This document shows, piece after piece, positions 30,725-47,968 of a stretch of 64,000 bases of DNA (positions are counted from its first letter, which is position 1; each line of letters starts with the position of its first letter). Below the pieces are notes generated by a model, which was given only the letters and a program-made list of their open reading frames with translations, was not told the DNA's origin and did not search any database. The stretch is from Symbiodinium natans (taxonomy: Eukaryota; Sar; Dinophyceae; Suessiales; Symbiodiniaceae), in assembly GCA_905221605.1 (NCBI GenBank), contig CAJNDS010002110.1:168501-232500 (forward strand), in the 5' to 3' direction. A program made the translations under genes and the position numbers.

Positions 30725-30814
30725 CGCCCCTCCCCAGCCCCACATTGGGCCGCCTTGAGGAAGTGCTCAAGCATACGCTGTCGCGCTGCCTCCTCCGGCA
30801 ACGGGATGTAGATC
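30725..30814 (-). CDS. AAA ATPase 2, exon with IYIPLPEEAARQ
   Basis: After an acceptor CGCCAG the minus strand reads IYIPLPEEAARQRMLEHFLK then AAQCGA. This matches the segment following the arginine-finger strand in katanin/VPS4-type AAA ATPases (KRIYIPLPEEAAR). Joining it to 31232-31305 gives LEKR|IYIPLP without a frame break. The plus-strand proline ORF here is a shadow. Confidence 0.85.
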
Positions 30815-31231
30815 CTGGCGTCCCCCACGCACAGCGAGCCCGAAAAAAAAAAGAAATGAAGAACCCGAAAGTGCAGGGTTTAGGGTCTCGGGTTTTAGGG
30901 TTCAGGGTTTTAGGGTTTAGGGTTTAGGGCACCATGTAAGCGGGAAACCGAAACTCTGAACCCTCAACGTTCTGAACCCCTAAGCCCCTAGGCCCAAGAG
31001 GAACCTAGGAATAACAAGAGCTCCCTTTTTGGCTCAAAGGCCTGAGGACCTATTCGCGGTTCCAGCTTAGAGTCCTGAACTGCGGTCTTTCTCCTCGCCT
31101 GAAGAACACCCCCGAACATGTGCCGGGTTACTCAAGACTTTTAAACTGGAAGCTCAACCTTGTAAACTCCAGTGCAACTCTTTAATCCCTAACCCAAAAA
31201 CCCTAGCTTTCCACCCTCTCGCGACACAGGC

Positions 31232-31305
31232 CTCTTCTCCAGCCGGCGACGGAGTGCCTCAACGCTTGGCAAATTCATGGGCACGAGGTTGAGGACAGAT
31301 GTGCT
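31232..31305 (-). CDS. AAA ATPase 2, arginine-finger exon
   Basis: Minus frame VLNLVPMNLPSVEALRRRLE then KR, matching the AAA segment that normally reads ATN.P..ID.ALRRRLEKR. The donor is GAAGAG|GC, a GC donor. Its Walker A and B exons were not found upstream, so this copy may be partial or its 5' exons diverged. Confidence 0.75.
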
Positions 31306-32049
31306 AAGAAGCCTAGAAACGTCAGCAATTATCCTAAACACAAGGTCGCTTCAGGAAGTTGGTTCTTTCATCCACTTACTTCTCCGAAGAACCAAGGAAT
31401 AAAGAGGGTTAACCTTCTATTTCTACTAAATATGGAACCCGAGAAGTTTAAAGTTCAGATATTGGCTGAGTAATCCCATGAGGGATTGCATCTTTCATCC
31501 GAGCCCGTATGGAAATCACAGTAGGCACTACAGAGGCTAAACTCGATGCTAAACTTGGAGCGCCCAGTCAAAGCTGGGTTTTTTAACTCACTAAACCCCA
31601 AGGGCTTAGGGTTGGGGGGGGGGGGGGGTGGTGTTGGAGGGAAACAAAGGCATTAAGACCTGTCTGCCCGAGATCCTAAGTGAGGCGTTCCTTAGTTGTC
31701 CAGTACCTAGGGCCCTAGGGGTTTTAAAGGTTAACCTTTGGGATTCTAAGGGGAATCTACTAACCCAAAAAGGTTAAAGGTTACCTACCCTCCTCAATCC
31801 ACAGAGGCCCTAAAACCTTAACAATCCTCCTAGGTAGGATAAGGGGCACCCTTAAAAGGGAACCCCTTCTTAACCCTCTTCTGGCTCTCTTAAACAGGGG
31901 CCTTATTCAGAGGGTCTATTTCCCCAAGGGGCCCCCTACTCTACTACTAAGGTCCTGAGAGTTGAGAGTTGAGAGTTCAGCACATCTCGGGCTCAGGGTT
32001 GTTGGACTTAAACCCTAAACCCTAAACCCTAAACCCTAAACCTTTCAGC

Positions 32050-32143
32050 CCTTAACATGCGTCACACTCGACGACCTCATTGCGTTACGCGATGACCCCT
32101 TCCGCAAGGCCCCCTGTTCACCTCCTAGCCATCCCGCAGCTAG
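32050..32143. other. Exon-like block
   Basis: Plus reads CVTLDDLIALRDDPFRKAPC then SPPSHPAA; a minus frame is also open. Flanked by CCCTAAA and TTTAGGG tracts. Confidence 0.35.
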
Positions 32144-32525
32144 GGTTTAGGGTTTAGGGTTTAGGGTTTAGGGTTTAGGGTTTAGGGTTTAGGGTTTAGG
32201 GTTTGGGGTTTGGGGTTTAGGGTTTAGGGTTTAGGATTGTTTTTGCCACCCGCCTAGGTTTTAGGGTTTAGGGTTTAGGGTTTCAGCCCCATGAGCATGA
32301 AGGAGCGACCAGCCCCCCAAAGAATTGATCACTGGCTCTTGCGGCCCCTGATATAGGGGTCGGCATAGCTACTAATGCGTATTTTTTAATGGTCCCTTTA
32401 TAATCATCCTAAACTCTAAGCCCTAAACCCGAAACCCCTGAACCCCAAACCCTATACTGTATAAATTGTACTATAATACCCTTTACCTTGTTTTTTTTAG
32501 GCGGCCCGATGGCTTCGGTTACCCA

Positions 32526-32628
32526 AAAACTACTATTTGCTTAAGAGCCCTAAAAGAATATTCAAAAAAAAAATCCTTAATAAGGAAGATTTTAATATTT
32601 TTCGGGTTTCTTAAGCAACTAGTAGAAA
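32526..32628. mobile_element. Family-B element with 5-bp duplication
   Basis: Ends CTACTATTTGCTTAAG and CTTAAGCAACTAGTAG, flanked by AAAAA on both sides. The AT-rich interior includes AAGGAAGATT. Confidence 0.7.
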
Positions 32629-32714
32629 AAGGAACCCCTGAACCCTAAACCCTAGACCCTAAACCCTAAACCCTAAACCCTAAACCCACCCTCAATCCTG
32701 AGGAAGCCCCGCCA

Positions 32715-32822
32715 CCCGGCACAAGGCCGACGCTGCTTTTCGTCGCGAGCCGGAGGCCGCATGGGTCCAAGCCCACCGCAGCGTGAAACTGGGTTTGCCC
32801 AAGCCCCGACCCCCAAACCGGG
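32715..32822. other. Exon-like block
   Basis: Plus reads RHKADAAFRREPEAAWVQAH then RSVKLGLPKPRPPNRG. Minus is also open (LGKPSFTLRWAWTHAASGSR). Strongly GC3-biased, so probably coding on one strand. Confidence 0.4.
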
Positions 32823-32913
32823 GCATTGGGGTTTCGGGTTTAGGGTTTAGGGTTTAGGGTTTAGGATAAAGGGTTTAGGGATCTTTGCAGCCGGTTATTT
32901 CCGAAAGCTTACC

Positions 32914-32995
32914 GGAATCCCTGGTTCGCCAACTTGAAGGGCTCGTGCAGCACGTCCTCGAAGAGTCCGAACCACTCGGCCTCCTGGCTTCGTAG
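32914..32995 (-). CDS. Exon with canonical GT donor, unknown protein
   Basis: Minus frame SQEAEWFGLFEDVLHEPFKL then ANQGFR, followed by the donor CCG|GTAAGC. Preceded by telomere-like sequence. No family recognised. Confidence 0.5.
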
Positions 32996-33869
32996 GGTTT
33001 TAGGGTTGAGGGTTTAGGGTTTAGGGTTTAGGGGGTTGTGGCTTCTACCTAGGGGCTTCTAACCTGCGGTTATGTGGGGCTTAGGGTTTAGGGGTTTGTT
33101 GTTCTTTTGCCAGACCCAAGAGCATCCAGGAATCAAGAAGGTGCCCTTTTTTGGGTTAAAGAGGCGGCCCGTTTTGGTTTAAAGGGGGGCTTAAACCCTC
33201 AGGGCCCAGCCCTTGCCCTAAACCCTCAATCCTAAAGCCCAAAACCTACCACCCCCAAAAAGGGAATTTGAGCTAAACCCTAAACCCTAAACCCTAAACC
33301 CTAAAACCCTAAACCCTAAAACCCTAAACCCTAAACCCTAAAACCCTAATCCCCCCCAAAAAATGAATTTGGCCCCCAGGGATCCTATGAAGGGAAGCAG
33401 ACTCCACTTTGAAGGGCTCGACCTCGAAAGCCTACCTACTATTTTCTGAATTATTAATTAGGGTTTAGGGTTTAGGGTTTAGGGTTTAGGGTTTAGGGTT
33501 TAGGGTTTAGGGTTTAGGGTTTAGGGCCCCCCAAAACATGTGAAATATCTTCCGCATGAGAGTCATATTGGGTATTTTCCACAATACGGGTGCCCTTTCA
33601 TACCCCGATTTTGGGAAACCCTCATTTAGGGATTATTATCTTTCAGTTTTTGGTGGGGTGCTTAAACAAAACTAGCTACAGAGACTGATCCATTTAACCG
33701 AAGCCTCCTAGCAACTGGTGTTTAGGGTTTAGGTTTTAGGGTTTAGGCTTCCTGCTGCTTGATCTTGCTCAGAAAGAAGGCCATACCTGCTCCCGTCCCG
33801 GGTCTTCGGCTTTGACATGCGCAATCAAGGGTGGTTGAGGGTCTGGGGCTTTTGCTGAAAGGCAGGTCT

Positions 33870-33962
33870 GTGAGCGTGCTAGCTGCTAGCTGCTAGCTGC
33901 TAACTGCTAGCTGCTTAGCTGCTAATTGGTAGCTGCTGCCTGCTGGCTGCTTGCTGCGAGCT
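33870..33962. repeat. AGCTGCT/GCTAGCT tandem repeat
   Basis: About thirteen imperfect 7-8 bp units of GCTAGCT and GCTGCTA. Self-complementary units could fold. Confidence 0.85.
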
Positions 33963-34045
33963 TTAATCACCAGGTATGAAAAGCATGTTGGGCTGAACAG
34001 CAGGCTCGGGCAAGCTTAGAGAACCGCACGAGCCTCAAGGCCCTT

Positions 34046-34143
34046 TTCAAGACGAGACTCAGGAGCAACTTCGGAATAAAAAAGGGTACCCTTTTTGGCT
34101 TCAAGGGGATTGAAGCAAATAAGGGCCTACGCCGGGTCCTAGA
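34046..34143. mobile_element. Family-A palindromic element
   Basis: GACTCAGGAGCAACTTCGGA at the left and CCTACGCCGGGTCCTAG at the right, with GGGTACCCTTTTTGGC inside. Lies within a minus-strand ORF (33967-34164) that may be host coding. Confidence 0.6.
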
Positions 34144-34481
34144 AGATAGCCTCGACAAAATCAAGCCACTGAACCCGACTCAACCCTAAACCCTAAACCC
34201 TAAACCCTAAACCCTAAACCCTAAACCCTAAACCCTAAACCCTAAACAACCCCCAAACCCTAACCCACTTCGGGGCTCGAACCCCTTAGCCCGGACAGCT
34301 GCGATGTTGACAGTGTCACATCCGCGTGCTCACTTGCACGAACAAACCCCCCTGAACCCTAAACCGTAAACAGCCAAGCAACCCTAAACCCTAAAACCCT
34401 AAAACCCTAAAACCCTCAAACCCTGAAACCCTGAAACCCTGAACCCTAAACCCTAAACCCTCAACCCTAAACCCAACAAGG

Positions 34482-34590
34482 AAAAGCAGCTGCCAAGCAC
34501 ATCCTGGGAGCGTCGCTCGTTGAGCTGCAACACCAAAGGCTCCCGGCGTGAGAGGCGGGGAATGCGGAGCAGCAGATAGTCGTCCTTTGG
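34482..34590 (-). CDS. Exon of unknown protein
   Basis: Minus frame KDDYLLLRIPRLSRREPLVL then QLNERRSQDVLGSCFSLL, with third-position C/G bias. Flanked by CCCTAAA and TTTAGGG tracts. May belong with 32914-32995. No family recognised. Confidence 0.5.
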
Positions 34591-35125
34591 GTTTAGGGTT
34601 TAGGGTTTAGGGCTTCGGGTTTAGGGTTTGTTGGGGGTTTCCGACTTTGGGGGGATAGCTTAATGGGGTCATACGGGTCCTACTATTTTGGGGGGTCTAT
34701 CTTCGGGGTCCCCCATGTTCGTCGCTTCTTTCTCTAAGGGTATTTTCATAGGCCCTAGGGATGGTCCCTAACCTTGAGGGTTTAGGGTTTAGGGTTTAGG
34801 ATGTAGGGTTTAGGGTTTAGGGTGGTTCGGATGTAATTATGGGCCCCTGATTTGTAGAGGGTTGATGAGGGCTATTCAAGGGGGGGTCCTTTAGGTGTTT
34901 GTTTGCTGCTCGCCTCGCTGAACCGGAGGTCCGTCCACATCGCAGGGACAAGGGTTTAGGGTTTGGGGTTAGAAGACAGTCGTCCTTTCTTGCAGTTGCA
35001 TCTGTGTGCTATGAATTGGAGGCTTAGGGGTTGTGTGACTCTGGAACAGTACTTTGACTCGCAATCTTACTCTTGGTATTTGCTGTCATTGCGTCGTTAT
35101 CACCATCCGTGGATACTGGTTGTGG

Positions 35126-35210
35126 TTGTGGTTGGCCGTTGGCCGTTGGCCGTTGGCCGTTGGCCGTTGGCCGTTGGCCGTTGGCCGTTTGCCGCTGCCG
35201 CTGCCGCTGC

Positions 35211-35261
<51 letters not shown>

Positions 35262-35262
35262 C
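35126..35262. repeat. (GGCCGTT)n then (GCTGCC)n/(GCT)n array
   Basis: Nine GGCCGTT heptamers change into GCTGCC hexamers and then about 17 GCT triplets. All ORFs across it are repeat products. Confidence 0.95.
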
Positions 35263-35328
35263 ATTGTTTGACGTTGTTGGTGTCGTTGTTGCTGTTCGCC
35301 AAGGCTTCACTTTACTTAGGGTTTGTAG

Positions 35329-35354
35329 TAGGGGGGGGGGGGGGGGGGGGGGGG
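35329..35354 (+). repeat. Poly-G run
   Basis: About 26 G's; exact length is doubtful in any assembly. Confidence 0.9.
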
Positions 35355-35539
35355 CCGGAAGAACTCAGCCATAGCATCTGAGAAGCAACGCTCCACACCA
35401 AGAAGAGCTGCCTTAAACCTAAACCCTAAACCCTAAACCCTAAACCCTAAACCCTAAACCCTAATCCCCAAACCCTAAACCCTAACCCCCGGCATGGTGG
35501 CCAGTGATCGGCAGATGGTCCCTAAACCCTAAACCCGCT

Positions 35540-35815
35540 CTAACTGGGACCTCAACAGTTCAAGCCAAGGTTCCGTACTCTACCCCTCATGACCCTACTT
35601 GGAGGTTCATGGGTAATTATGGGTAGGGTTATAAGTACCCGAAGTAAGGTTATAACAAAAGGTTGCCCTAATTACTGACAACCCAAATTTATAAGCACCC
35701 ATGAACCTCCAAGTAGTGACCTCGTACACCGCCGAATTATAGAACCCTTGTGGAAGCCGCAAAACCCTACACCCGCTGTGCGGGGGACCCCGAACTTTAT
35801 AGCCGAGGCTCCCTG
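35540..35815. other. Exon-like block interrupted by a family-H element
   Basis: With the element and one TGACC removed, plus is open through the junction (VQAKVPYSTPHDLVHRRIIE) and minus is open too (QGFYNSAVYEVMRGRVRNLG). The host is therefore probably coding, strand unknown. Confidence 0.4.
35590..35721. mobile_element. Family-H element, perfect 20-bp inverted repeats, 5-bp duplication
   Basis: 122 bp with ends CTACTTGGAGGTTCATGGGT and its exact complement. Flanked by TGACC at 35590-35594 and 35717-35721. No coding capacity. The best-preserved family-H copy; relatives at 2.73, 8.3, 22.6 and 25.6 kb are degraded. Confidence 0.9.
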
Positions 35816-35895
35816 ATCAGGGTCCAGTTGCCCCGCTTCCACTGGGAGGACACGAGGCTCCCATCTCTGAGAAAGCCTCTGATCTGTCGGACGTA
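35797..35895. other. Exon-like block open on both strands
   Basis: Plus reads GSLIRVQLPRFHWEDTRLPS; minus reads VRQIRGFLRDGSLVSSQWKR. Overlaps the end of the preceding block in another frame. Confidence 0.35.
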
Positions 35896-36337
35896 GGGTG
35901 TACTGTAGGGGCCTTAGTAATTAGAACAGGGGTTTGGGGGTCATTATAGTACATTTAAAAAGGAACCATAAGGGAATACTAGTAGTGGGCTTTCAGGGTT
36001 TTAGGGTTAAAAGGAGATTTAGGTCTAGGGCTTTCAGGGTTCTCGGGATCTCTTGGGGGCGGGGTGGGGCGGGGGGGGGGGGCTAATATCATGACACACC
36101 CAGCAGTAGGTAAGTCTTGGAGTTTGACGCACGATGGAGCCAGAGTTCTGGGGGGAGGGTTGAAAAAAGAAACTAGGGCCCCTGTATGCTTGAGGTACAA
36201 AGAAGGCCCCGCACTCCGACTGTCATATGAAGTCTCTCTGTATATATTTCTTGTACCCCCAAAAGGACACCCAGTATATACACTCACCAATTTTAAAAAG
36301 GAACCTTATATACACTCACCAAAAACAGTAATATGAC

Positions 36338-36402
36338 CCGTAATGATCTTCGTGTGCAAGGCGCAAATCTTCGTGTGCAAGGCGCAGATCTTCGTGGGCA
36401 AG
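36338..36402. repeat. Three tandem units of CTTCGTGTGCAAGGCGCA
   Basis: About 20-bp units, the last changed to CTTCGTGGGCAAGGCCCA. A TTTAGGG tract follows. Confidence 0.85.
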
Positions 36403-36796
36403 GCCCATTTTGGGGGTTTTGGGGGTTTAGGGTTTAGGGTTTAGGGTTTAGGGTTTAGGGTTTAGGGCCTTGCCCGCGAATTATTGTGCCTGAAGGCATG
36501 CGGCGAAGGGCCTATAGGGAATGGAGCTTAAGGTTTATGGATTGAGTGAACTTGATATTCTCTCAATGTTGCGGGAGTCTTTGGGCGAGTGGGTATCCTC
36601 CTGTCGCTTGAAAAGCTGCTTGACTAGTGAAAGCTAGAACCTGAGATGCTGAACCCTTTTTGCTAAACCCTCTAACCCTAAACCAGCCAAAGTCGACATA
36701 AAAAGCTTTGCTGCTAGCACTTTGAGAAGCGCATGTAGCCCACATGGCGCAGGTTGTTGAGCGGCAGCCTCTGAACACCCTTCTAGGGGAGGTTGG

Positions 36797-36923
36797 GTTA
36801 GGGTTTAGGGTTTAGGGTTTAGGGTTTAGGGTTTAGGGTTTAGGGTTTAGGGTTTAGGGTTTAGGGTTTAGGGTTTAGGGTTTAGGGTTTAGGGTTTAGG
36901 GTTTAGGGTTTAGGGTTTAGGGT
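36797..36923 (+). repeat. TTTAGGG tract, about 18 units
   Basis: Among the longest uninterrupted interstitial tracts in the window. Confidence 0.95.
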
Positions 36924-37334
36924 TTTGTGAGATTTGTACAGGGTTTGGGGTTTCCCGATTGAAGTGCTCATTTTCAAGGAGCATGTAACTACTTTAAGCA
37001 CCTTGGTTTCAAGGGGCTTCTGATGGAACCTAGGCCCTATAGAAGGGACCTGCCCTGGGTCGTAGTAGGCAAGGCTTCTGCAGGTCTCCATCTCGACTAC
37101 AGATAATCTTAGACCTGCGTTCCGGGTTTAGAGGGCTTAGGCTTGGGCGTGTCCTGTAGATGTAGAAGCGAAAATAGAGGACCCCCTTGTCCTGAACCTT
37201 AAACCCTAAACCCTAAACACCCAGTGGAGGCTAAACCCTAAACCCGAAACTTGGGGCGGGGCTCTACTATCATTTGCAGGCCTCTACTATGACAGACATG
37301 CTCGCGGCCGCGTGCCGGTGCTGATAACAGAAAC

Positions 37335-37737
37335 TTTAACGGGATTTGTTACGGAACTGTAGCGGAGCCGTAACGGAAGGCTGCAACGAACTACCTGCTG
37401 TAGCGGTATGTAGCAGTGCTGTAACGGAAGCTGTAACGGAGCCGTAGCAGAAGAAGCAACGTGAGTGTAGCGGAGCTGTAACGGACCTGCAACGGAGCTG
37501 CATATCTGAGCTGTCCCGGAAGCTGTAAACGGAGCTGTAACGGAAGTGCAACGGAGCTGTAACGGAGCTGCTATGGAAGCTGTAACGAAGCTGTAGTGAA
37601 GGTGCAACAGAGGTGCAATGCGGCGGTAACGGAGCTGTAACGGAGCTGCAGCGCAAGCTGTGACGGAGCTGAACACTGTAACGGAGGCGCAACGGAGGTG
37701 CAATGGAGCTGTAACGGAAGTTGTGACGGAGGTGGGC
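37335..37737. repeat. Degenerate 11-12 bp tandem repeat, GTAACGGAGCT
   Basis: About 35 imperfect units of CTGTAACGGAG with CTGCAACGGAG and GTAGCGGAG variants. ORFs on the minus strand (SVTAPLQLRY-type) follow the repeat and are not credible genes. Confidence 0.85.
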
Positions 37738-38723
37738 AGCGCAAATCCCACATAGTACATCATGGTAGAGCCCAACCCTGAACCCTGAACCCTGAACCTT
37801 GAACCCTAAACCCTAAACCCGAAACCCGAAACCCTAAACCCTAAACCCTAAAACCTAAACCCTAAACCCTGCACCTGTAGATGTAGAAGCGGAGGTTGAG
37901 GAAGCTGTGCCGGAGAGCTCGTTGGAGGTTCCTGGGCTGAATCCTGAACCTCTCCTAAACCCTAAACCCTAAACCCTAAACCCTAAACCCTAAACCCTAA
38001 ACCCTAAACCCTAAACCCGAAACCCTAAACCCTAAACCCTAAACCCTGAACCCTACACCCTAAACCCTAAACCCAAAAAGCCAAAGTCCCAAGAGCCAGC
38101 CAGAAGAAAGCCGAGGTTCCCTCTGTCTGCTTGGCAGATGCGGCCCTCGGATCGGTTGAACCTGGAAGACCAGTTCCTGGGTTGGAATAGGGTTTAGGGT
38201 TTCGGGTTTAGGGTTCAGGGTTTAGGGTTTGGGGATTGGGGATTGGGGATTGGGGATTGGGGTTTGGGGCTTCGGATTTGCCCCTCTAGGGCTTCAGGTG
38301 TTCGGGCTTCCGGGCTTGAAGGGCATTATTTTAAGGCGTTAGGCAGGCTTTAGCGTTTCTTTGGTTGGTTCGGCTAGGGGTGACCCTCTGAGAAATATTC
38401 TTGCAACATCCTCCTCAAGCCAGCAAGGGAATTTGCCAAAACAGGCATCACCACCCCGAATTAGAGCCATGCAAACCCTACACCCCAAACCCTAAACCCT
38501 AAATAACCCTAAACCCTAAACCCTAAACCCCAAACCCCAAAAAGTTTTCTCTAGGGACCCCGGCACCTTCCATCCCAGCCGGTGCCCAGACCCTTGCAGT
38601 TTACCAGCAGACCAGCATCCTGAGGAGCTGTTGCGCAGGGGTCTGAGGGTTGAGTTTTCAGGGTTTGGGGAAAGTTGAGGGTTGAGATTCCTATGAAGAC
38701 CCCAAACAAAGTCACAAAAGGTT

Positions 38724-38850
38724 TCCCAAAGAGCCCAAAACCCCTTCATGAAGGAACATACCTTAAGTCATATTAAGGATCCCTCTATATAATTTCAGGT
38801 ATCTTCCTTAGTGAAGGGGTAGACATGGCTCTAGGGCCCCCAAAAACCCA
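38724..38850. mobile_element. Decayed family-C element
   Basis: TCCCAAAGAGCCCAAAACC on the left and a weakened GGCTCTAGGG on the right. Interior CCTTAAGTCATATTAAGGAT matches the other family-C copies. Confidence 0.6.
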
Positions 38851-38990
38851 CAGAAGCAACAAGTAGGATAGGGATATCTCATATAACCCCCCTTATACTG
38901 AAGCCCAATAAGGTAGGGGATGTCCCTATAAAATGCTTATGCTTATGTCCTTTTTGGGTTTAGGTTTAGGGTTTAGGTTTAGGGTTTAGG

Positions 38991-39112
38991 CTTCAAGCAT
39001 CTTCAAGCTCGCTCACAGCGCGGTGCACGGAGTCGAAGACGTAGTCGTCGAAGACCAGGAACTGCAGCCCAGGGAAGTAGAGCAGCGCGTTGCGCGCATC
39101 CGCCAGCACGGC
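38991..39112 (-). CDS. Methyltransferase-like module, exon 5
   Basis: Minus frame continuing NHDYEA|VLADARNALLYFPGLQFL then VFDDYVFDSVHRAVSELE. The pattern (acidic strand end, FDDY) fits the late strands of a class I SAM methyltransferase. Upstream it is joined to exon 4 across a 93-bp telomere-repeat intron. Further 3' exons were not found with confidence; a TTTAGGG tract and a CTTCAAG direct repeat lie at its lower edge. Confidence 0.7.
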
Positions 39113-39212
39113 CTCGTAGCCCTAAACCCTAAACTTTATAAACCCTAAACCCTGAACCCTAAACCCTGACCCTATAAACCCTAAACCCTAAACCTTGAAA
39201 GCGGCCTCGTAG
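39109..39212 (-). repeat. Telomere-repeat intron with 11-bp target duplication
   Basis: Telomere-like units lie between two copies of CGGCCTCGTAG (39109-39119 and 39202-39212). On the coding strand each copy reads CTACGAG|GCCG. A 93-bp unit starting GC and ending AG can therefore be removed, giving DYEA|VLAD. Unremoved, the frame hits a TAG in the first telomere unit. Confidence 0.85.
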
Positions 39213-39334
39213 TCATGGTTCGCGTCGATGATCGCCACGCTGACGTTGTTGCTGGCAATGGACTGCCAGTCGGCTGCTTGAAGATCCAAAGCGAGCAGAA
39301 ACACGTTGGGCAGGTCTTTGGTGTGGTTTGCGGC
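39206..39334 (-). CDS. Methyltransferase-like module, exon 4
   Basis: Minus frame ANHTKDLPNVFLLALDLQAA, DWQSIASNNVSVAIIDANHD and YE. VSVAIIDANHDY fits the strand-4 (motif IV) region of class I methyltransferases. Bounded on both sides by GC-AG junctions with direct repeats. The plus-strand ORF here is a shadow. Confidence 0.75.
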
Positions 39335-39485
39335 CTCTTACTTCCAATAACCAAGGGGAAAACAAGGTTAGACTTTATATTTATATTATTATTACTATTA
39401 TTATTATGATTATAATTGTTATTTTTCCTACTAAATAAGGAAACCCAAAAAGTTTAAAAGCTCAGCTCTTGGAGAAGTAAGGCCT
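39332..39485. mobile_element. Introner-like TIR element inside the methyltransferase gene
   Basis: A 149-bp AT-rich insertion between GGCCT at 39332-39336 and 39481-39485. Its ends begin TTACTTC in inverted orientation. On the coding strand the junctions are CCAG|GCC ... AAGAG|GCC, a GC-AG intron. Removal gives RDSLDQ|AANHTKD with no frame break. Non-telomeric and different in sequence from families A-H. Confidence 0.8.
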
Positions 39486-39577
39486 GGTCCAAAGAGTCTC
39501 GCAGGATGTCCACGGAGATGACCTTGCGAAAGATCGCCGCCAGGACGGCGGTGGTGTGGCCCACATGCACTCCCAAC
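39484..39577 (-). CDS. Methyltransferase-like module, exon 3 (SAM-binding motif I)
   Basis: Minus frame LGVHVGHTTAVLAAIFRKVI then SVDILRDSLDQ. (E)LGVHVGHTTAVLAAIF.KVISVD is a clear glycine-rich SAM-binding loop followed by the acidic end of strand 2. With exon 2 the first residue completes to E. The most diagnostic exon of this gene. Confidence 0.8.
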
Positions 39578-39863
39578 CTTTTATGTGCCACAGGAACCCT
39601 AAACCCTAAACCCTAAACCCTAAACCCTAAACCCTAAACCCTAAAACCCTAAAACCCTAAACCCTAAACCCTAAAAGGGTTTATGGTTCATATACCTACT
39701 CTTCAGCCTTTATATGGAGATCATAGTAGCGATTCTGGGGTGTATGACCCCCAGTCTTAGGGCTCTTCATATACCTACTCTTCAGCCTTCATGGGGATCA
39801 TAGTAGTACTTATAAGCCATGTGACCCCCTTTTTTGGGGGGGTTCATTTGGTCCCCAAGGAAC
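39578..39863 (-). other. Intron of the methyltransferase gene, with telomere tract and inner direct repeat
   Basis: Coding-strand junctions GA|GTTCC and AAAAG|GTTGGG give a GT-AG intron; GTT is repeated at both sites. It contains a CCCTAAA tract (39597-39675) and two copies of an approximately 40-bp segment with ATACCTACTCTTCAGCC about 70 bp apart. Confidence 0.65.
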
Positions 39864-39988
39864 TCAAGAGCCGTCATGTGAGACCCCTGCTCACAGAAAT
39901 GCTCGGCCAGGTGCTTCTTGAAGACGTGGCTTGTGGTGTATTCCATCTCCGCCCGGTCCGGCGCCCGACGGATCTGCACCTCCGCCGC
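39864..39988 (-). CDS. Methyltransferase-like module, exon 2
   Basis: Minus frame AAEVQIRRAPDRAEMEYTTS, HVFKKHLAEHFCEQGSHMTA and LE. It leads directly into motif I in exon 3, as expected for the N-terminal helix before strand 1 (...MTALELGVHVGHTT). Its 5' end is joined to exon 1 across a 101-bp telomere intron. Confidence 0.75.
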
Positions 39989-40094
39989 CTCCAAAGGGTT
40001 TAGGGTTTAGGGTTTAGGGTTTAGGGTTCAGGGTTAAGTTTAGGGTTTAGGGTTTCGGCTTTAGGGTTTAAGTTTAGGGCTTAGGCCGCCTCCA
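39984..40094 (-). repeat. Telomere-repeat intron with 10-bp target duplication
   Basis: TTTAGGG units on the plus strand lie between two copies of GCCGCCTCCA (39984-39993 and 40085-40094). On the coding strand the junctions are TGGAG|GCGGC at both ends, so a 101-bp GC-AG intron (39989-40089) can be removed to join FGRCME|AAEVQIRR. 101 is not a multiple of three, so removal is required for the frame. Confidence 0.85.
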
Positions 40095-40358
40095 TGCACC
40101 TGCCGAAGCTGTCGCTGAAACTCGCCGCGGGCACAATGACTGAGAGCCAGAGCAGCATTCTCTGGGCTGTGGCGGGCGTCCTGAAAATGTTCGCGAAGCG
40201 CGGCATGTACGGCCGGGCGCCCGTATGCCCAAAGACGGCGGGCAAACAGCCGCGTCCATGAGCGCCATGTGCGCTGGAAAGCCTACTCCTGGAACCGGGA
40301 ACTGGCAAGCGGCTGACGACTCGGAGCTGCAAAAGATGCTCAAGGAGGTTTTTGCCCG
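40090..40358 (-). CDS. Linker exon between the AAA and methyltransferase modules
   Basis: Minus frame AGKNLLEHLLQLRVVSRLPV, then FGHTGARPYMPRFANIFRTP, then LLWLSVIVPAASFSDSFGRC and ME. The first ten residues fit the AAA helix after the KRI strand (ARRALLEHHLQ); the last 60 lead into the methyltransferase. The middle is not recognisable and could hide an intron or frame change. Confidence 0.55.
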
Positions 40359-40391
40359 CTCAAAACGGTTTAGGGCTTAGGGTTCAGGGCT
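40359..40391 (-). repeat. 31-bp telomere-like insertion in coding sequence
   Basis: About four imperfect units between two GCTC copies (40358-40361 and 40389-40392). Removing 31 bp joins SKQDAHR|AGKNLLEH, restoring the AAA frame. It is very short for an intron. Confidence 0.6.
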
Positions 40392-40441
40392 CGATGGGCA
40401 TCTTGCTTTGAAGGAGGAGCCACTCAACGACAGATCCGCTT
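40392..40441 (-). CDS. AAA ATPase 1, exon with KRI and VAPPSKQDAHR
   Basis: Minus frame KRI, then nine bases including an in-frame TGA (40424-40432), then VAPPSKQDAHR. AAA ATPases normally read KRIYVPLPSKEAR here, so the match is good apart from the nine-base interruption. Either this is a decayed copy, a sequencing error, or an unusual splice. Confidence 0.6.
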
Positions 40442-40504
40442 TCTAAACCCTAAAATCCTCAACCCTGAACCCTAAACCCTAAACCCTAAAACCCCAAAAA
40501 CCCC

Positions 40505-40577
40505 AAGAACCCTAAGACGCCATGCTGCCTCATCCAGGTCCCAGGGCGCGTTGCTCGTTGCCAGGACGAAGAGGTGT
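40505..40577 (-). CDS. AAA ATPase 1, sensor-1 exon
   Basis: Minus frame HLFVLATSNAPWDLDEAAWR, the sensor-1 strand and following helix of meiotic-clade AAA ATPases (VLVLATSN.PWDLDEA). The acceptor CTGAG|ACACC joins to the donor CA|GTCCCC of 43756-43814 to give PGAQ|HLFVLATSN. Confidence 0.85.
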
Positions 40578-40639
40578 CTCAGTGGAGGGTTTTGAGGGCT
40601 CCTAAGCCTCAACGAAAGGAGCCCATACCATCGCGTAGA

Positions 40640-40747
40640 ATCGGGAGTAACCTAGGAATAAAAAAGGTGCCCTTTTTGATTTTAAGGGGATTATGAGGGA
40701 ACCCCAATCCTAAAAAAAGAAAAAACGGGCCTACTCCCGGTCCTAGT
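40640..40747. mobile_element. Family-A palindromic element
   Basis: The left part has CGGGAGTAACCTAGGAA, the right GGGCCTACTCCCGGTCCTAG; the interior is GGTGCCCTTTTTG. Confidence 0.65.
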
Positions 40748-41164
40748 CACCAACGCAATTCTCTTTCAGTCCGTAATCATACACTAACCTGAAAATACCA
40801 TTCTAACCTGAGAAAGGCCCCTGAAATCATCTGTTGGGGGTCACCGGGTGGAGCAGTGGCGTCCGGTTGCATAACATAGCCTGACGGGGGCGGACAAATG
40901 CCCTAAAATGCCCTAAACCCCATAAACCCTAAACCCCATAAACCCCAAAACCCTAGAACCAAAAGGCAGTTCCATAAAGTTCGGTTCCCCTGACGACAAG
41001 TTTAAAGGCAAAGCCTACTTTGAGCTGGGAATCCTAGACCCCAAAGACCCTACCCTCGTTGCTGAGTACCCTGGCCCAAAAAGAAGGTTAGCCTTTCAAT
41101 TATGGTAGTATTGTATATACCCCAACAGGTTCAAAAGGCTATCGACTCAGCTACTAAGCTAAAC

Positions 41165-41335
41165 CTGGCTGACTTCTGAACCCCTCCTGAAAGTTTAACT
41201 TTTAGGCTCCTTATTGTAGTGTCTACAAAAACCGAAAGGTTAAAGTCCTAAACCCTAAACCCTAAACCCTAAACCCTAAACCCCAAACCCTAAACCCTAA
41301 ACCCTAAACCCTAAACCCTAAACCCTAAACCCTCC
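41165..41335. repeat. Dispersed repeat piece plus CCCTAAA tract
   Basis: CTGGCTGACTTCTGAACCCC through GGTTAAAGTCCT is a near copy of 6850-6945. It is followed by a CCCTAAA array of about 11 units. In the 6.9-kb copy the repeat continues without the telomere array, so the array was inserted into, or replaced, part of it. Confidence 0.75.
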
Positions 41336-41617
41336 CTAAGCCCGCCAGAAGAAAGCCAAGCAAAGTCCTCAACCCTGGGTGCGGATGGGGCGGCCCATGT
41401 TGGTCACCTTGTGTCTCACTCAACCTTCGGTTCCAAGCGGTTTAGGGTTTAGGGTTTAGGGTTTAGGGTTTAGGGTTCAGGGTTTAGGGTGCATACCCCT
41501 TGGACATACCCTTCAAGAAACTTAATGTTGGACCCGCTTTAATAAGTTACCCCCCCCCCCCCCCCGACAGTCGCGACCCTGAATAAAAAAAGACCCCAAA
41601 CAGTCGGGGGGGGGGGG

Positions 41618-42345
41618 GGTCCGGAGCCCGGAGGCCTCCCTAAGCTACCCCCCGACCCTGGAAAGGTCGAGGCTTCAGGCTTCAAGTATCCCTTCTTCTC
41701 GAGAAAGCTTATGCCTTCCTGAAAACCGAAGGACTGAGCCCCGGGCCCCGGGAGACTTGCATTATAGCGGGCCCCCAAACAAAGGTATTAAAGTGTGTCC
41801 GGAGGCCTCCGTAAGGTACCCCCTTTCCGGATATGATTCGCCTATGGAATCATCTAGTCTTAAGTAAGGAATTTATAAAGAAAAGGCGCCCTGAAAAAAG
41901 AAGATTGTCGGAGATCCTGGACAGGTCGAGGCTTCAGGCTTCAAGTATCCCTCCTTCTCGAGAAAGCTTATGCCTTCCTGAAAACCGAAGGACTGAGCCC
42001 CTGGCCCCGGGAGACTTGCATTATAGCGGGCCCCCAAACAAAGGTATTAAAGTGTGTCCGGAGGCCTCCGTAAGGTACCCCCTTTCCGGATATGATTCGC
42101 CTATGGAATCATATAGTTTTAAGTAAGGAATTTATAAAGAAAAGGCGCCCTGAAAAAAGAAGATTTTCGGAGATCCTGGAAAGGCCGAGGCTTCAGGCTT
42201 CAAGTATCTCTCCTTCTCGAGAAAGCTTATGCCTTCCTGAAACCCTTAAAAAAACAGTCACGGCCCGAAGACTTTTCATTATAGTGTACCCCCAAAACAA
42301 AGGGCCAAGATCCTGAATAGCCGAAAAACTTTTCGTAATAGCGTC
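41618..42345. repeat. 259-bp tandem repeat, about three copies
   Basis: Landmark GGCTTCAGGCTTCAAG starts at 41671, 41930 and 42189, an exact 259-bp spacing. Copies differ by a few substitutions; the outer ones are partial. The two ORFs starting MIRLWNH (41833 and 42092) are 259 bp apart and are the repeat read in one frame. Contains GGAGGCCTCC and CCGGGCCCCGGG palindromes. Confidence 0.9.
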
Positions 42346-42386
42346 CCCCTAGAATATTGCGGGTGCAACATTAAGGGGTATGTTTG

Positions 42387-42509
42387 GAGGGTCGGGTGAC
42401 TTCGTCGGTAGATAGGAAGTAGACTTATACGTACCCTGAAAGGGACCCTAATTGGAGTTATCCTACTTATATCTCTCTACTAGATAGCTACTAAGTCATC
42501 CGACCCTCT
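42387..42509. mobile_element. Family-M inverted-repeat element
   Basis: Ends GAGGGTCGGGTGACTT and AAGTCATCCGACCCTC are near-perfect complements. AT-rich interior, non-coding. Adjacent to the 259-bp repeat. Confidence 0.7.
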
Positions 42510-42519
42510 AAGATGGTAA

Positions 42520-42900
42520 AATCCTTCCTTCTATTCTCCTTGTATCGGTTAAGGGGGATGGGTTTGGTTTATGTGGAGTTCTTCTTAGAACCTTTCCTAA
42601 ACCCTAAACCCTAAACCCTGTGCGACAGAAGGGAAGGGAGAAACGTACTAAAACAGTTGGCTTGGGAGGTGGCCTTTAGGAGGGATTAGACAGGTTCCTC
42701 AAAGATTCTCAAGGTTTTTTGTCAAGGATTACCCTAAGGCTCTAATTAAGGACTCTTACTTTAGGGTTTTCGGGCCCAAACGGCTTCTTATATAAGGTTT
42801 CGGGTTATTTTGAGCCCAAGGGTTAAGGAGAGTCTTATGCTCCAGGCTTCAGGACCCTAAACCCTAAATCCCAAACCCTAAACCCTAAACCCCAAACCCT
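42520..42900. other. No gene seen
   Basis: AT-balanced sequence with one CCCTAAA tract near 42597 and no convincing exon on either strand. Confidence 0.5.
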
Positions 42901-42916
42901 GAACCCTAAACCCTAA

Positions 42917-43005
42917 ACCCTCCATGATGAAGTCCTGCGAGCAACCGACACGAACGTCAAATGGAAGCCCAGGCTCGACGCGAGTGACCGGGTTGAGGGC
43001 ATAGA
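42917..43005 (-). other. Possible exon inside the AAA gene span
   Basis: Minus frame IYALNPVTRVEPGLPFDVRV then GCSQDFIMEG. It is protein-like but not an AAA segment and lies between two AAA exons that join without it. It could belong to a nested gene. Confidence 0.35.
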
Positions 43006-43394
43006 TGTTTAGGGTTTAGGGTTTAGGGTTTTTCAGGGTTTAGGGTAGTTTAGAACCACTCAAAAAAGGAAGAGTAATACTGCCTCTATTGCCCTAATAA
43101 GGAAGAATGGTTGCATGTCACTGTTCTTTGTGTTTTTTCGGGGGGGAAGGGGGGGGGGGTTCTTAGGCAGCAGGTGGAGTTTGGATTTTGGAATGTGTAG
43201 GCTTTAAGGTTAAAGTCCACGGTCGTTTATAGGGTCCAGGCTGCAACCCTAAACCCTAAACCCTAAACCCTAAAACCTAGGTACATGTATAAGCTTAAGC
43301 TCAAGAAGTCGCAGCCGGTTCTGGCCAGGCTGAAGTACACAATTACACAATTACATTGTTTAGGGCTTAGGGTTTAGGGTTTAGGGTTCAGGGT

Positions 43395-43520
43395 TCCGCG
43401 GCATCCCAATGTCAGGAGTTTTTCTGAACGGGTTCCTGGAGCCTCTGATTTCGCTCCAAGGGCCCTTCAACTCGGAATGCCGATGCCTCCATCGCTGGAA
43501 CCCTGTCTTGGTGTTGAGAG
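43395..43520. other. Exon-like block open on both strands
   Basis: Plus reads RGIPMSGVFLNGFLEPLISL; minus reads RHRHSELKGPWSEIRGSRNP. Flanked by TTTAGGG on the left and a long CCCTAAA tract on the right. Confidence 0.3.
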
Positions 43521-43620
43521 AAACCCTAAACCCTAAACCCTAAACCCTAAACCCTAAACCCTAAACCCTAAACCCTAAACCCTAAACCCTAAACCCTAAA
43601 CCCTAAACCCTAAACCCTAA
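43521..43620 (-). repeat. CCCTAAA tract, about 14 units
   Basis: Clean CCCTAAA array. Confidence 0.95.
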
Positions 43621-43755
43621 CCCCCTTCCCTTGGAGCCCGCACCCCCCCAGCCTAGCAAACAAGCGCCTTACAACTAGCTCAGGGTGCAAGCCTGAGCCC
43701 ACCAAGCTCTAAAGGGTTTAGGGCTTAGGGTTTAGGGTTTAGGGTTTAGGGGGAC

Positions 43756-43814
43756 TGAGCCCCTGGCAAGCCATCCATGTGGATGAGGAACTCCGACTTA
43801 AACCTCCGGGAGGC
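43756..43814 (-). CDS. AAA ATPase 1, exon SRRFKSEFLIHMDGL
   Basis: Minus frame ASRRFKSEFLIHMDGLPGAQ, the helix and strand after Walker B (EHEASRR.K.E.L.QMDG) of katanin/spastin-type ATPases. The acceptor GGTGGAG|GCC pairs with the donor CACGAG|GC of 44252-44288, joining AAEHE|ASRRFK in frame. Confidence 0.9.
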
Positions 43815-44251
43815 CTCCACCAGCTTCGGCGGGTTTGTACCAGACGGGGTGAGGCGGGTTTAGGGTTTAGGGCTCTAATGTAGTTCCTTTGTGGGTTAAA
43901 GGGAAGTCTAGTATACTCCCCAAAAAGGTACTACACAGGAGCCGGGCATGCGTGCTACTGCTTTCAGCCCTTTTGGTCTTTTCATGAATGGTTCCGTTGA
44001 AGCAACTAACCTCGGAGCATACTTCACATTTGAAGCAGCTGACCTCGGAGCATACTTACAAACCAATCGCACGCTTGAGGGGGCCAAGCGGAAGAAGGGT
44101 GACAGTCCTGTCGTTGACAAGCCAAAGACCCCTGAGATATCTCCTAACGGGTTTAGCGTTTAGGCTTTAGAGTTTCGGGTTTAGGGTTTAGAGTTTAGGG
44201 TAAACCCTAAACCCTAGACCCTAAATCCTACGCACTTCCTGCTTCTCTCGC

Positions 44252-44288
44252 CTCGTGCTCCGCTGCTCCCCCACGTTGTGAAAGCAGC
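44252..44288 (-). CDS. AAA ATPase 1, 37-bp micro-exon
   Basis: Minus frame LLSQRGGAAEHE, linking FFDEIDS to ASRRFK as expected (DSL.SQR....EHEASRR). Acceptor GCGAAG|GC and donor CGAG|GC both carry the AG-GC pattern. Too short to be called without the neighbouring homology. Confidence 0.8.
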
Positions 44289-45039
44289 CTTCGCAATCTG
44301 ACCCAGAAGGGTTTCGGGCCAGGTGTAGGGTTCGCCTGGGACTCTATGTCTACATGAGTCGGTATCTACCCGGAACCCTTTTTTGCAACAAAACCCTAAA
44401 TCCTAAACAATACATCCTAAACCCAAATTAATTTGCGCTAAACCCCTCAAAGCTGTAAGGTAAACAGAGAGTCCCACGTAGGGCACCCGCTGTTTAGGCT
44501 CAGGGTTCCAGGCGAAAAGGGGTGGAGTGTCCAAGTTCGAGATTTATATGGTTTAGGGATCAGGGTTTAGGGTTTAGGGTTCAGGTTATCCGAGGCCAGG
44601 TAACTGTGGTAACTGTGGAAGGCGTCAGGGATCCACTTCAAGCAGAGTAGAACGTGAAAACTAGCGCATGGGCTTGGGGAAACCCTAAACCCTGCACCCT
44701 AGACTCCCTAACCCCAAAAGAGCCATGTTTGGGAAGCTCAGGGTGCAGTTGTTTAGGGCTTAGGGTGTGACTTCATTGTTGCCGGTCCTTCATGCACTGT
44801 ACACCTACCCGAAGCCCTAAACATCCTTTTCAGCCCTAAACCGCTACAAACCCCAAACGTCCCTCAGCCCTCAGCCCTCTAAACATCCCTCAGCCCCAAC
44901 CCCTAAGCATCCCTCAACCCTAAGCGCCCCCGGCCCTAAACCCTACTACCCCTAAACCCCTAAACCCCAAACCCCAAACCCCAAACCCTAAACCCTAAAC
45001 CCCAAACCCCAAACCCTACAACCCAGTGAAAGCCCAGCC

Positions 45040-45093
45040 GGGGGGCGAGTCGATCTCATCGAAGAACAGGATCGACGGAACCCGGGCCCGGGC
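45040..45093 (-). CDS. AAA ATPase 1, Walker B exon
   Basis: Minus frame ARARVPSILFFDEIDS. SILFFDEID is an unmistakable AAA Walker B box. The acceptor is CAAG|GCCCGG. The donor GACTC|GCCCCC is a GC donor, joining DS|LLSQRGG. The longer ORF through the AT-rich sequence upstream is not coding. Confidence 0.9.
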
Positions 45094-45154
45094 CTTGCGC
45101 GGCGTGCTTTTGGAATTGACAAGGCTTGTCACTGGGCTCATATGAGGTTCAGGT

Positions 45155-45315
45155 ATATAATAAGACATATATATATATACACATATGTATACAAAAAGTA
45201 TATAGATATGTATATGTCTGAATATAAACATGTATACATATATGTATATGCATATATGAATGCGTACATGTATGTGTGTGCATATACATACATATATATA
45301 TATAGTTGGATTTAT
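45155..45315. repeat. AT-rich TATATG/CATATA stretch
   Basis: Low-complexity alternation of TATATG and ACATAT. It gives tyrosine/methionine-rich and histidine-rich ORFs that are not genes. Confidence 0.85.
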
Positions 45316-45640
45316 ATGTGTACATGTACACACAATGTAAAAACGGGCTAAACCCTAAACTAGATGTAGAGGGAATATGAAGGGTTTATGGGGCGTGGAT
45401 ATAGCGCTCATCCGAGTTTTGGGGCTTACCGGGAATGTGTGGGCATAATTGTAGCATTGATGGGGCTTTGTGGGGTTTACAGGGTTCAGGCCTGTGGAAG
45501 ATTTAGGGTTTTGGGGTTAGACTGCGCAGCTGCTTCGAGGAATGAGGACTTTTATCATTCTGTCTGGGGTGCGCTGGGCTCTGCAGACAACGGGGTGTAA
45601 GGTTGAAGAGTGGGGGGGTCAACCCGAATTAAATCCTAAA
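45315..45640. other. No convincing gene
   Basis: The plus ORF at 45388-45600 covers much of it, but its composition (GYSAHPSFGAYREC ...) and the lack of a family give little support. A CCCTAAA tract closes the stretch. Confidence 0.4.
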
Positions 45641-45844
45641 CCCTAAACCCTAAACCCACGGCGCATCGAAGTAACTCTTTGGGTTCTTCAGCCTCATGGC
45701 ATCCACTCACTGGTTCAGTCATAATCCCCCTCACTGGCCTTGTGTATCACTGTCACAAGAGACTGCTACTTTTGGAATAAGCCCCATGAACCCTTAGGGT
45801 TTAGGGTTTCGGGCTTAGGGCGATGTGGGGTTTAGATCCTCGGA

Positions 45845-45949
45845 CCTTCTCCCTCTCTCGCCATCCTAGGCACGCCCCGCTTGCAAGCTCGGCACCCTTG
45901 GCTGCCAAACTTTCCGAGCCAAAACAGGCCCACAGAGACATAAGACCCC
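45845..45949. other. Exon-like block left of a family-A element
   Basis: Plus reads HAPLASSAPLAAKLSEPKQA then HRDIRP. The frame continues (LYDIRIEPLQP, stop) after 46076 if the element and one AAGACCCC are removed. Minus is also open across the joint. Confidence 0.4.
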
Positions 45950-46075
45950 CTAGACCAAGGAGGAACCTAGGAAAAAGAAGGGGACCCTTTTTGGGGTTTT
46001 AAGCGGGTTGTAAGGGTACCCTAAACCCTACAAAAGTGGAATAAGGGCCTACTCCGGGTCCTAGCACAAGACCCC
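45942..46075. mobile_element. Family-A element with 8-bp duplication
   Basis: Flanked by AAGACCCC at 45942-45949 and 46068-46075. Ends CTAGACCAAGGAGGAACC and GGCCTACTCCGGGTCCTAG. Telomere-like units are embedded inside (GGGTACCCTAAACCC). Confidence 0.75.
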
Positions 46076-46967
46076 TCTATGATATAAGAATAGAACCGCT
46101 CCAGCCATAAACCCCTACGAGCACTGGTGCAGTAAGGGGTGCCACCTTCTAACCCGAAACCCCAAAAACTACCCTACGCACCCCAAAACCTAGAGAAGCC
46201 CTAAAAACCCCTAAACCGAAAACCCTAAACCAAATGAAACCTCAAAGTGCGCGCCGAGGGGCTGTCTGAAACCTGGTTGGGGCGCAAGCTGAAGGGGCTT
46301 GGGGCGGATAAGTTAAGGGGTATCAGGAGGGAGCCCTGGAGAGGACCCTTAATCTTATTCCCGTATATAACCCCTCCATAACCCTTATATGGTCCCTATA
46401 CACCTAAGTAGCCCCTAAATAAACCCCCAAAGAGCTCCGATTGTCCCTCACATAAGGGTCCCTCTTGTCGTCCCTGGAATAAGCGCCCACCTCGCCTCCA
46501 TTTACCTACGATCTTGTTTTGTTGTTTGTTATTTTCTTTTTTTTTTTTGGGGGGGGGGGGGGGATAAAAACTAAACCCTAAACCCTAGAGTCAAAGGAAG
46601 CTCGGGTTCATCAGGTTTAGGGGTGATTGGGGCTCCGGCTCGCTCAGGGTTTTGGGGGATTCGTTACAGAGGCTTGTGAAGCGTTTAGGGTTTAGGGTTT
46701 AGGGTTTAGGATGTCACAAGTATATCCTTCATAGAGGGTTCCGGCAATGTTCCTCAACCACTGGCCGCAAGACTACTCCTTTTTGACTTGGTGTGTTGCT
46801 TCTTCCGTTGGACTTAAGGCTCAACCCTAAAACCTAAACCCTAAACCCCAAACCTAAACCCGACACCCTAGAACAGCGACACCCGAAACCCTAAACCCTA
46901 AACCCTAGAACAGCCAAAACCCGTAACTCTCCAAAACCCTCAACCCCGAACCCTCAACTAGACCCAG

Positions 46968-47075
46968 GAGTGACCGAGGAACAGATTTGGTACCCTTTTT
47001 GTGGGTTTGAAGAAGATGACCCAACCCTAAACAAAGGAAATAAGGGCCTACTCCGGGTGCTAGGATATAGGCCTT
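46968..47075. mobile_element. Family-A palindromic element
   Basis: Ends CTAGACCCAGGAGTGACC and GGGCCTACTCCGGGTGCTAG; interior GGTACCCTTTTTGTGGG. The best match between its two ends among family-A copies. Confidence 0.75.
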
Positions 47076-47251
47076 TTGTTGCATCTGGACTCATTGCTGC
47101 CAGGCTGTAGGCAATGACCAGCTGCTACACAGAAGGCCACCACACAATTAGTATATAACCCTAAACCCTAAACCCTAAACCCTAAACCCTAAACCCTAAC
47201 CGTAACCCTCACCCCTAAACCCTAAACTCGAAACCCTAAACCCTCAACCAG

Positions 47252-47337
47252 GGGACAGCGCCCGGAGCAACTTCTCTGACTCCCCTCGCCACTTGGAGGT
47301 CAGGGTCGCTGAGCTGCAGTTGAAGAAAGTGATGTTC
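47252..47337 (-). CDS. AAA ATPase 1, pore-loop exon
   Basis: Minus frame NITFFNCSSATLTSKWRGES then EKLLRAL. TFFN.SS.TLTSKWRGESEKL is the strand and pore-loop region that follows Walker A in katanin-type AAA ATPases. A TTTAGGG tract lies at its upstream side. The exact edges are uncertain. Confidence 0.9.
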
Positions 47338-47787
47338 CTCAGGGTTTCGGGTTTACAGGGTTTAGGGTTTAGGGTTTAGGGTTCAGTTGAACATCGGTTT
47401 TTGTCCACCACTAGCTCACTTCCCCCGCCCCCCTCCCCCCCCTAACCCTCCTGATGGTAGTTCTTGATCCTAGGACAAGGCCAGCATTCTACATCTAGGA
47501 GGCTTAGCCACTAAGCCCCTAGTTAGAAATAGCTTAGGGTTTAGGGTTTAGGGTTTAGGGTTTAGGGTAAACCCTACACCCAAACCTGACAAATCCCACA
47601 GCGCAGTCTGTGTGCACTTTGGGCAAGAAAGAGATTTAGGGTTTCGGGTTTAGGGGAGTTCAGGGAGGGGGGGTTCAAGAGAGGTGTAACCCAAGGTTCC
47701 ACTCCTCACTACCCCCTAAGGCTCCCTAAACTTTTCAAGGTTCTCCCGTAAGGCCCTGCAAGAACGGAGCAAGAAAGTTCACCAACC

Positions 47788-47965
47788 CTGAACCCTAAAC
47801 CCCTAAACCCCTAAACCCCTAAACCCCTAAACCCCCTAAACCCCTAAACCCCTAAACCCCTAGACCCCTAAACCCCTAAACCCCTAAACCCCTAAGCCCC
47901 TAAACCCCTAAACCCCTAAACCCCTACCCTTAAAACCCCTAAACCCCTAAACTCCTAAACCCCTA
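47788..47965 (-). repeat. CCCCTAAA octamer array, about 20 units
   Basis: Long array of the octamer variant ending two bases short of the Walker A exon, so it forms the start of the intron after that exon. Confidence 0.95.
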
Positions 47966-47968
47966 AGC

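Follow-up and report, generated by a model that had tools for sequence, protein, structure and literature searches.

Where do new introns come from? The question is old, and the massive sources known are transposons (introners). It is raised again by a 64,000-bp stretch of DNA from the dinoflagellate Symbiodinium natans (positions 168,501 to 232,500 of contig CAJNDS010002110.1, assembly GCA_905221605.1; hereafter the window), in which a telomere-repeat tract lies between two copies of an 11-bp sequence (39109–39212) within the coding part of a methyltransferase gene. Here the insert is chromosome-end repeat, and any splice sites would come from the target alone. An initial annotation of the window proposed that telomere repeats are themselves inserted and spliced as introns, and knew of no described telomeric introner; nor did we find one in the literature on telomere repeats, introns and introners (mostly papers available without subscription). 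Can such a tract have become an intron?

A Telomere Tract between Perfect Repeats in a Methyltransf_24 Gene

The interrupted gene lies on the minus strand and has about 14 exons, which when joined match Pfam Methyltransf_24 (E 2e-7). Among homologues, P0001 of S. necroappetens matches best, at 70% identity, and on the minus strand its matches continue beyond the tract as far as about 32,900. The gene was modelled by a purpose-written spliced alignment that accepts GT, GC or GA donors and an AG acceptor, with either P0001 or P0014, the protein of an S. natans paralogue, as guide. Introns 2, 3, 5, 8 and 9 are identical under the two guides. Intron 4 differs by 3 bp between the guides, and for introns 6 and 7 the acceptors differ by 12–15 bp. 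Exons above 37874 are firm except for small shifts; below 35819 lie small exons on which the models diverge further and which are uncertain. The features of the gene outside introns 1 and 4 are as follows.

32907–40158, minus strand: Methyltransf_24 gene, with the model's first ATG at 40158 and its stop near 32909
39578–39863, minus strand: intron 2, 286 bp, GT-AG, with 81 bp of tract (both guides)
39335–39483, minus strand: intron 3, 149 bp, GC-AG, tract-free, classed as a high-copy introner, with inverted ends CTTACTTC/GAAGTAAG
38620–39001, minus strand: intron 5, 382 bp, GA-AG, with the 6-bp border repeat GATGCT and 35 bp of tract counted
37932–38119, minus strand: intron 7, 188 bp, GA-AG, with border repeat GGAACCTC and 64% telomere tract (P0014 guide; the acceptor under the P0001 guide is 37944)
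34417–33436 and 33422–32988, minus strand: last two introns of the model, from the spliced alignment

Exons of a katanin/VPS4-like AAA ATPase gene flank the methyltransferase gene on both sides, also on the minus strand (window 30750–48050). Because they lie on both sides and on the same strand, the methyltransferase gene would be contained wholly in a 9,271-bp AAA intron (31258–40528), which is bounded by TGAGGCA at both borders. An AAA guide sequence was used only for placing exons of the AAA gene.

The tract that prompted the annotation, and the exons on either side of it, occupy these positions.

39109–39119, plus strand: copy 1 of the target duplication, CGGCCTCGTAG, exact repeat
39120–39194, minus strand: imperfect TTTAGGG tract of intron 4, delimited by exact-heptamer merging
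39202–39212, plus strand: copy 2 of the target duplication, CGGCCTCGTAG, exact repeat
39113–39205, minus strand: putative intron 4, 93 bp, GC-AG, telomere tract plus one copy's worth of target duplication
39206–39334, minus strand: exon preceding intron 4 (...IIDANHDYE), from homologue matches and spliced alignment
39002–39112, minus strand: exon following intron 4 (AVLADARNALLYFPGLQFLVFDDY...), from homologue matches and spliced alignment

As the annotation had stated, the 11-bp repeat is present exactly twice around an imperfect telomere tract, a configuration far above chance in shuffled flanks. It has these two plus-strand copies in the window and is absent from the opposite strand. The tract lies between them; perfect heptamers make up 84% of its bases, and its G-rich strand is the coding strand of the methyltransferase gene. 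Both copies do read CTACGAG|GCCG on the minus strand, and the putative intron 4 has the borders GAG|GCCG...CTACGAG|GCC. The proposed GC-AG placement was likewise borne out: AG|GC lies in the duplication, and the P0014-guided alignment picks the junction of 39206 to 39112. With P0001 as guide, the donor is 39202, 3 bp lower, which gives a 90-bp intron and one extra Ala.

Excision of the 93 bp (39113–39205) joins IASNNVSVAIIDANHDYE to AVLADARNALLYFPGLQFLVFDDY in a stop-free frame; when the 93 bp are kept, stops appear. This part of the annotation holds. The restored frame is, however, no independent evidence of splicing, because dropping an insert together with one duplication copy always restores the old frame; since the target duplication alone has this effect, we discarded the argument as proof. 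Independent support is provided by the position of AG|GC, by a second tract in the gene, by the otherwise open coding sequence and by homologous sites that are empty.

A Second Tract in the Same Gene

A further tract in the gene is flanked by GCCGCCTCCA, a perfect 10-bp repeat.

39984–39993, plus strand: copy 1 of the intron 1 target duplication, GCCGCCTCCA, exact repeat
39995–40079, plus strand: TTTAGGG tract of intron 1, opposite to the gene in orientation
40085–40094, plus strand: copy 2 of the intron 1 target duplication, GCCGCCTCCA, exact repeat
39989–40089, minus strand: putative intron 1, 101 bp, GC-AG, telomere tract between perfect 10-bp repeats

On the coding strand this duplication reads TGGAG|GCGGC, that is, AG|GC again, and the borders of the putative intron are GGAG|GCGGC...TTTGGAG|GCG. 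They were set by hand inside the repeat (AG|G rule) and also by a splice-compatible scan, the aligner placing the intron at 40086–39989; the length of the repeat is independent of the hand-set border. Introns 1 and 4 thus both show spliceosomal borders, GC-AG with G after the AG, and both carry the target duplication expected of introners, perfect over 10 bp and 11 bp, respectively. In the coding sequences of the window gene and its paralogue, AGG[CTA] is present in 8.9% of 10-mers and 10.1% of 11-mers; its occurrence in both duplications would therefore have a chance probability of about 1%, if targets were random.

This figure bears on one alternative, in which the tracts are ordinary insertion damage: they would remain unspliced in interrupted exons, and the gene would be dead or a non-functional allele. 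Against this, the modelled exons contain neither a stop nor a frameshift under either guide. To this is added that two insertions both have AG|GC rightly placed on the coding strand, the coincidence of about 1% given above. Damage would agree with the stops that telomere repeats bring and with the protein searches (about 100–320 aa and 260–820 aa), which among deposited S. natans proteins found the paralogue but none belonging to this gene. Differences between the window gene and the paralogue number 74/64/101 at codon positions 1/2/3 over 320 codons, a third-position excess that counts in favour of the intron reading but, being mild, would also agree with damage. On balance we regard insertion damage as unlikely.

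Homologous Sites Are Empty

The paralogue, C1736:710619–716844, corresponds to the deposited S. natans protein P0014 (340 residues, 11 introns). It served as a check on the spliced alignment: the P0001 guide recovers exactly 9 of the 11 P0014 introns, and P0014 as its own guide reproduces 340 of 340 residues. A telomere tract is present in 10 of these 11 introns. According to PMC8045281, models of the deposited S. natans set were kept with transcript support or with at least two ab initio predictors; since the latter sufficed for retention, deposition of a model does not prove transcription. The same paper reports that full-length transcripts of S. natans were produced.

At the sites of introns 1 and 4, the paralogue DNA is continuous, and the DNA of three single-exon homologues in the same genome (L029, L030 and L031) is likewise empty at both. 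Homologous proteins are ungapped at introns 1–4 in 14 of 14 cases (P0001 and P0022 begin two residues before intron 1), a comparison that shows the product and not the state of the DNA. Together with the 11-bp duplication, these data uphold the claim that the tract is an insertion. As in interstitial telomeric sequences, the tract is internal and the homologous sites without it are continuous.

The paralogue has introns of its own elsewhere, and several later introns are common to both genes. Border repeats average 5.5 bp in introns present in one gene (n = 13; at least 9 bp in 3), compared with 2.7 bp in introns at shared positions (n = 7) and 2.4 bp in mismatched pairs (n = 506; none of at least 9 bp). 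The count leaves out 34417–33436 and 33422–32988 and keeps three introns of doubtful position apart. For intron 7 it uses the P0001-guided border, which gives a repeat of 3 bp where the other border gives 8. Window intron 6 is taken as a one-gene intron, and so is the intron of the paralogue at aa 206, despite their closeness to each other in a non-aligning stretch of the proteins. Window 239 is taken as shared from the P0001-guided model alone.

Flanking Duplications around Telomere Tracts in Sampled Loci

The S. natans assembly comprises 759,417,921 bases in 2,543 contigs. The 64-kb window holds 175 tracts of at least 20 bp, covering 8,876 bp; they split 84 to 91 between the two orientations and have a median spacing of 137.5 bp. 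Among sampled regions, 16 of 20 have 8–40 tracts per 10 kb. Tract density is uneven, with 0 or 1 tract in L009, L015, L021 and L028.

We surveyed 268,965 bases, made up of the window and 27 loci (a locus overlapping the window was excluded), for repeats flanking 586 tracts. Exact flanking repeats of at least 8 bp were found at 27 tracts (4.75 expected from shuffled flanks), of at least 10 bp at 10 (0.4 expected) and of at least 11 bp at 7 (a mean of 0.05 in shuffles), about three of these seven being partly telomere-like. When one mismatch at most was allowed in 10-bp repeats, 27 of the 586 tracts had one, compared with 6.35 expected and a maximum of 12 in 20 shuffles. Hence about 4% of tracts keep a duplication beyond the chance level.

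Nine of 27 tract-flanking repeats hold AGG[CTA] on some strand, compared with 10.5% of null matches, and insertion may therefore prefer AGG[CTA] targets. If AG|G were a preferred target, the two AG|GC duplications in the methyltransferase gene would carry less weight; because several of the repeats are partly telomere-like, we use this count as a caution only. Two clean AGG[CTA] repeats (L018:190 and L024:2504) lie outside known genes.

Among the 273 tracts of at least 60 bp, those with perfect repeats were not found to be purer (0.84 and 0.84, compared with a median of 0.82). Capture of an already imperfect repeat is therefore at least as likely as a fresh telomerase product, and inserts freshly made by telomerase are not favoured.

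Gap closing can create short end duplications. The pattern at introns 1 and 4 could in principle have this origin, contigs having been joined over short overlapping ends with telomere-repeat padding in between. The window, against this, is without any N, and its tracts are imperfect and individual. In the P0014 gene, moreover, the deposited protein is reproduced by splicing out introns that nearly all carry tracts, and the excess of flanking duplications extends over the whole sample. An assembly artefact is thus highly improbable.

Further tract-only introns were sought by a joined-frame scan of the 586 tracts and a splice-compatible scan of the 510 tracts of at least 30 bp. In the second scan, nine hits had coding-like sequence on either side, and of these only the two of the methyltransferase gene, one in L043 and perhaps L027:7053–7091 are credible. 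The L043 candidate has GT-AG borders and a 5-bp repeat and measures 98 bp in the scan and 92 bp in the spliced alignment. It lies in a distant homologue (P0001 match, E 0.007), whose remainder gives inconsistent models across three guides, and a search with its 78-aa piece returned no Pfam match at E 1. We take it as a third, weaker candidate, so that the 510 tracts scanned for splice-compatible flanks yield two clear tract-only introns and one weaker. At L027:7053–7091, a telomere tract lies between the imperfect repeats GGAAGCCGGC/GGAAGCTGGC in coding-like surroundings that have no Pfam match.

High-Copy Introners as a Yardstick

Two tract-free introns of the gene pair allow comparison with introners of the same genome. 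Intron 3 (39335–39483) contains no telomere repeat and has 39 further copies among 40 scored of 945 candidates; these are 91–95% identical over roughly the first 65 bases, and 22 of them also match in the last part, at 85–91%. The first intron of the paralogue, C1736:716561–716661, also tract-free, gave 1,566 candidates, of which 40 were scored; 39 copies beyond itself are 86–91% identical, nearly end to end. The two are ordinary high-copy introners, of two families.

The stretch around intron 4 behaves differently. An own-genome search with 38990–39360 gave 102 matches including the window itself (40 scored of 1,239 candidates), and the matches other than the window fall within positions 115–221 of the query, that is, the tract and a few repeat bases, at 93% for the best. 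No end-to-end copy family for intron 4 was found among these 40 scored candidates. Nor were inverted ends beyond chance found in the inserts: the longest inverted match within the end 25 bp is 4 bases for intron 4 and 3 for intron 1, as in shuffles, compared with 8 bases for intron 3, a value reached by 1 of 200 shuffles. Border repeats measure 5 bp in both tract-free introners, in contrast to the perfect 10–11 bp at introns 1 and 4. The membership among introners that the initial annotation had suggested therefore does not apply in the strict sense, the inserts having no inverted ends beyond chance and intron 4 no copies with common unique ends. Tract introns stand beside high-copy introners, and both kinds of gain would thus coexist in one gene pair.

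Could an older introner have occupied both positions, its body later replaced by telomere repeats that grew or were captured inside it? Hybrids that fit this history exist. In intron 7 the tract is accompanied by other sequence at the ends. In the paralogue, inverted ends, GTACCTAGG/CCTAGGTAC, surround a telomere tract in the intron at aa 206 of P0014 (C1736:714366–714489). The last four bases of these ends lie in the exon, and the intron looks like an introner/tract hybrid. Introns 1 and 4 have inserts of another kind, nearly all tract from edge to edge, and both the shuffle-like match of their ends and their longer, perfect repeats speak against an introner precursor, which we consider very unlikely.

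A Possible Route from Telomere Repeat to Intron

We think it likely that telomere-repeat DNA was inserted at staggered breaks, and that duplications bearing AG|GC let the inserts act as introns. In this scheme, a staggered break would open in an exon, telomere-type DNA would be added or captured at the break, and fill-in of the overhangs would produce the target duplication, here of 10 and 11 bp. Where the sense strand of the duplicated sequence holds AG|GY, a donor could come from the upstream copy and an acceptor from the downstream one; the dinoflagellate spliceosome would then cut out the insert completely and leave the original message. As each duplication holds AG|GC, the donor here would be GC and the acceptor AG|G, each from a different copy. 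AG|GY would suffice as splice sites because the lineage splices GC and GA donors; GC/GA-AG introns make up 25–74% of Symbiodiniaceae introns according to a review (PMC11453091). Tracts without AG|GY would break the exon and be lost, and surviving exon tracts would therefore look like introns. We infer splicing of the two tract introns from their borders and the otherwise open gene, and the break-repair route, with telomerase or a captured telomeric strand as the source of the insert, is suggested by the duplications.

Two elements of this proposal are already known: introners that use the target for both splice sites (PMC9860276) and telomere insertions at breaks (PMC7215372). In S. microadriaticum, introners have 4-bp duplications, inverted ends and their own 3' splice site, and families drawing both splice sites from the target occur in Florenciella (Gozashti 2022, PMC9860276). 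Like the introners described there, the S. natans tracts are inserted into exons, and a target duplication would supply the splice sites; unlike those of S. microadriaticum, they have duplications of 10–11 bp, no inverted ends and no unique sequence. They also differ from introners in that no master copy was found for the telomere tracts. With the high-copy introners of S. natans they share occurrence as one-gene introns with GC-AG and GT-AG borders at AG|G, whereas those introners have many copies at 85–95% identity and 5-bp border repeats.

PMC7215372 describes short interstitial telomeric sequences of human and horse as inserted during double-strand break repair, with a simple flanking duplication in 3 of 66 horse insertions. 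It reports no such insertion in a human coding exon, which the authors explain by the stop codons that an insertion would bring. The S. natans tracts resemble these insertions in that telomere repeats would have been added in one step at a break, as judged by comparison with empty loci; they differ from the human ones in lying in exons, from which they are apparently spliced out.

In Daphnia, intron gain has reportedly been proposed to occur through repair of staggered breaks with short direct repeats, the inserts being without a common source. The S. natans case is alike in that a non-transposon insert between short direct repeats would become an intron, and unlike in that the inserts have one common source, the telomere repeat.

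A broader reading is that in S. natans telomere-repeat DNA is a genome-scale, non-transposon source of introns, seeded by break repair, that exon tracts duplicating AG|GY were fixed, and that a good part of the introns are former telomere repeat or contain such. We offer it tentatively, as somewhat short of an even chance. Introns made from telomere repeat would in any case connect gene structure with break repair and the maintenance of telomeres, and explain why exon telomere insertions can survive in a lineage with relaxed donors.

Other Features of the Window

Three further features were observed in the window. About 16 units with the consensus TTTGGGG, a variant telomere unit, form an almost clean array at 3209–3319. 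At 19266–19313, a run of about 48 G adjoins a telomere tract. A single-exon open reading frame of about 323 codons occupies 16171–17142 on the minus strand; it is 74% identical to an S. natans protein named GIP.
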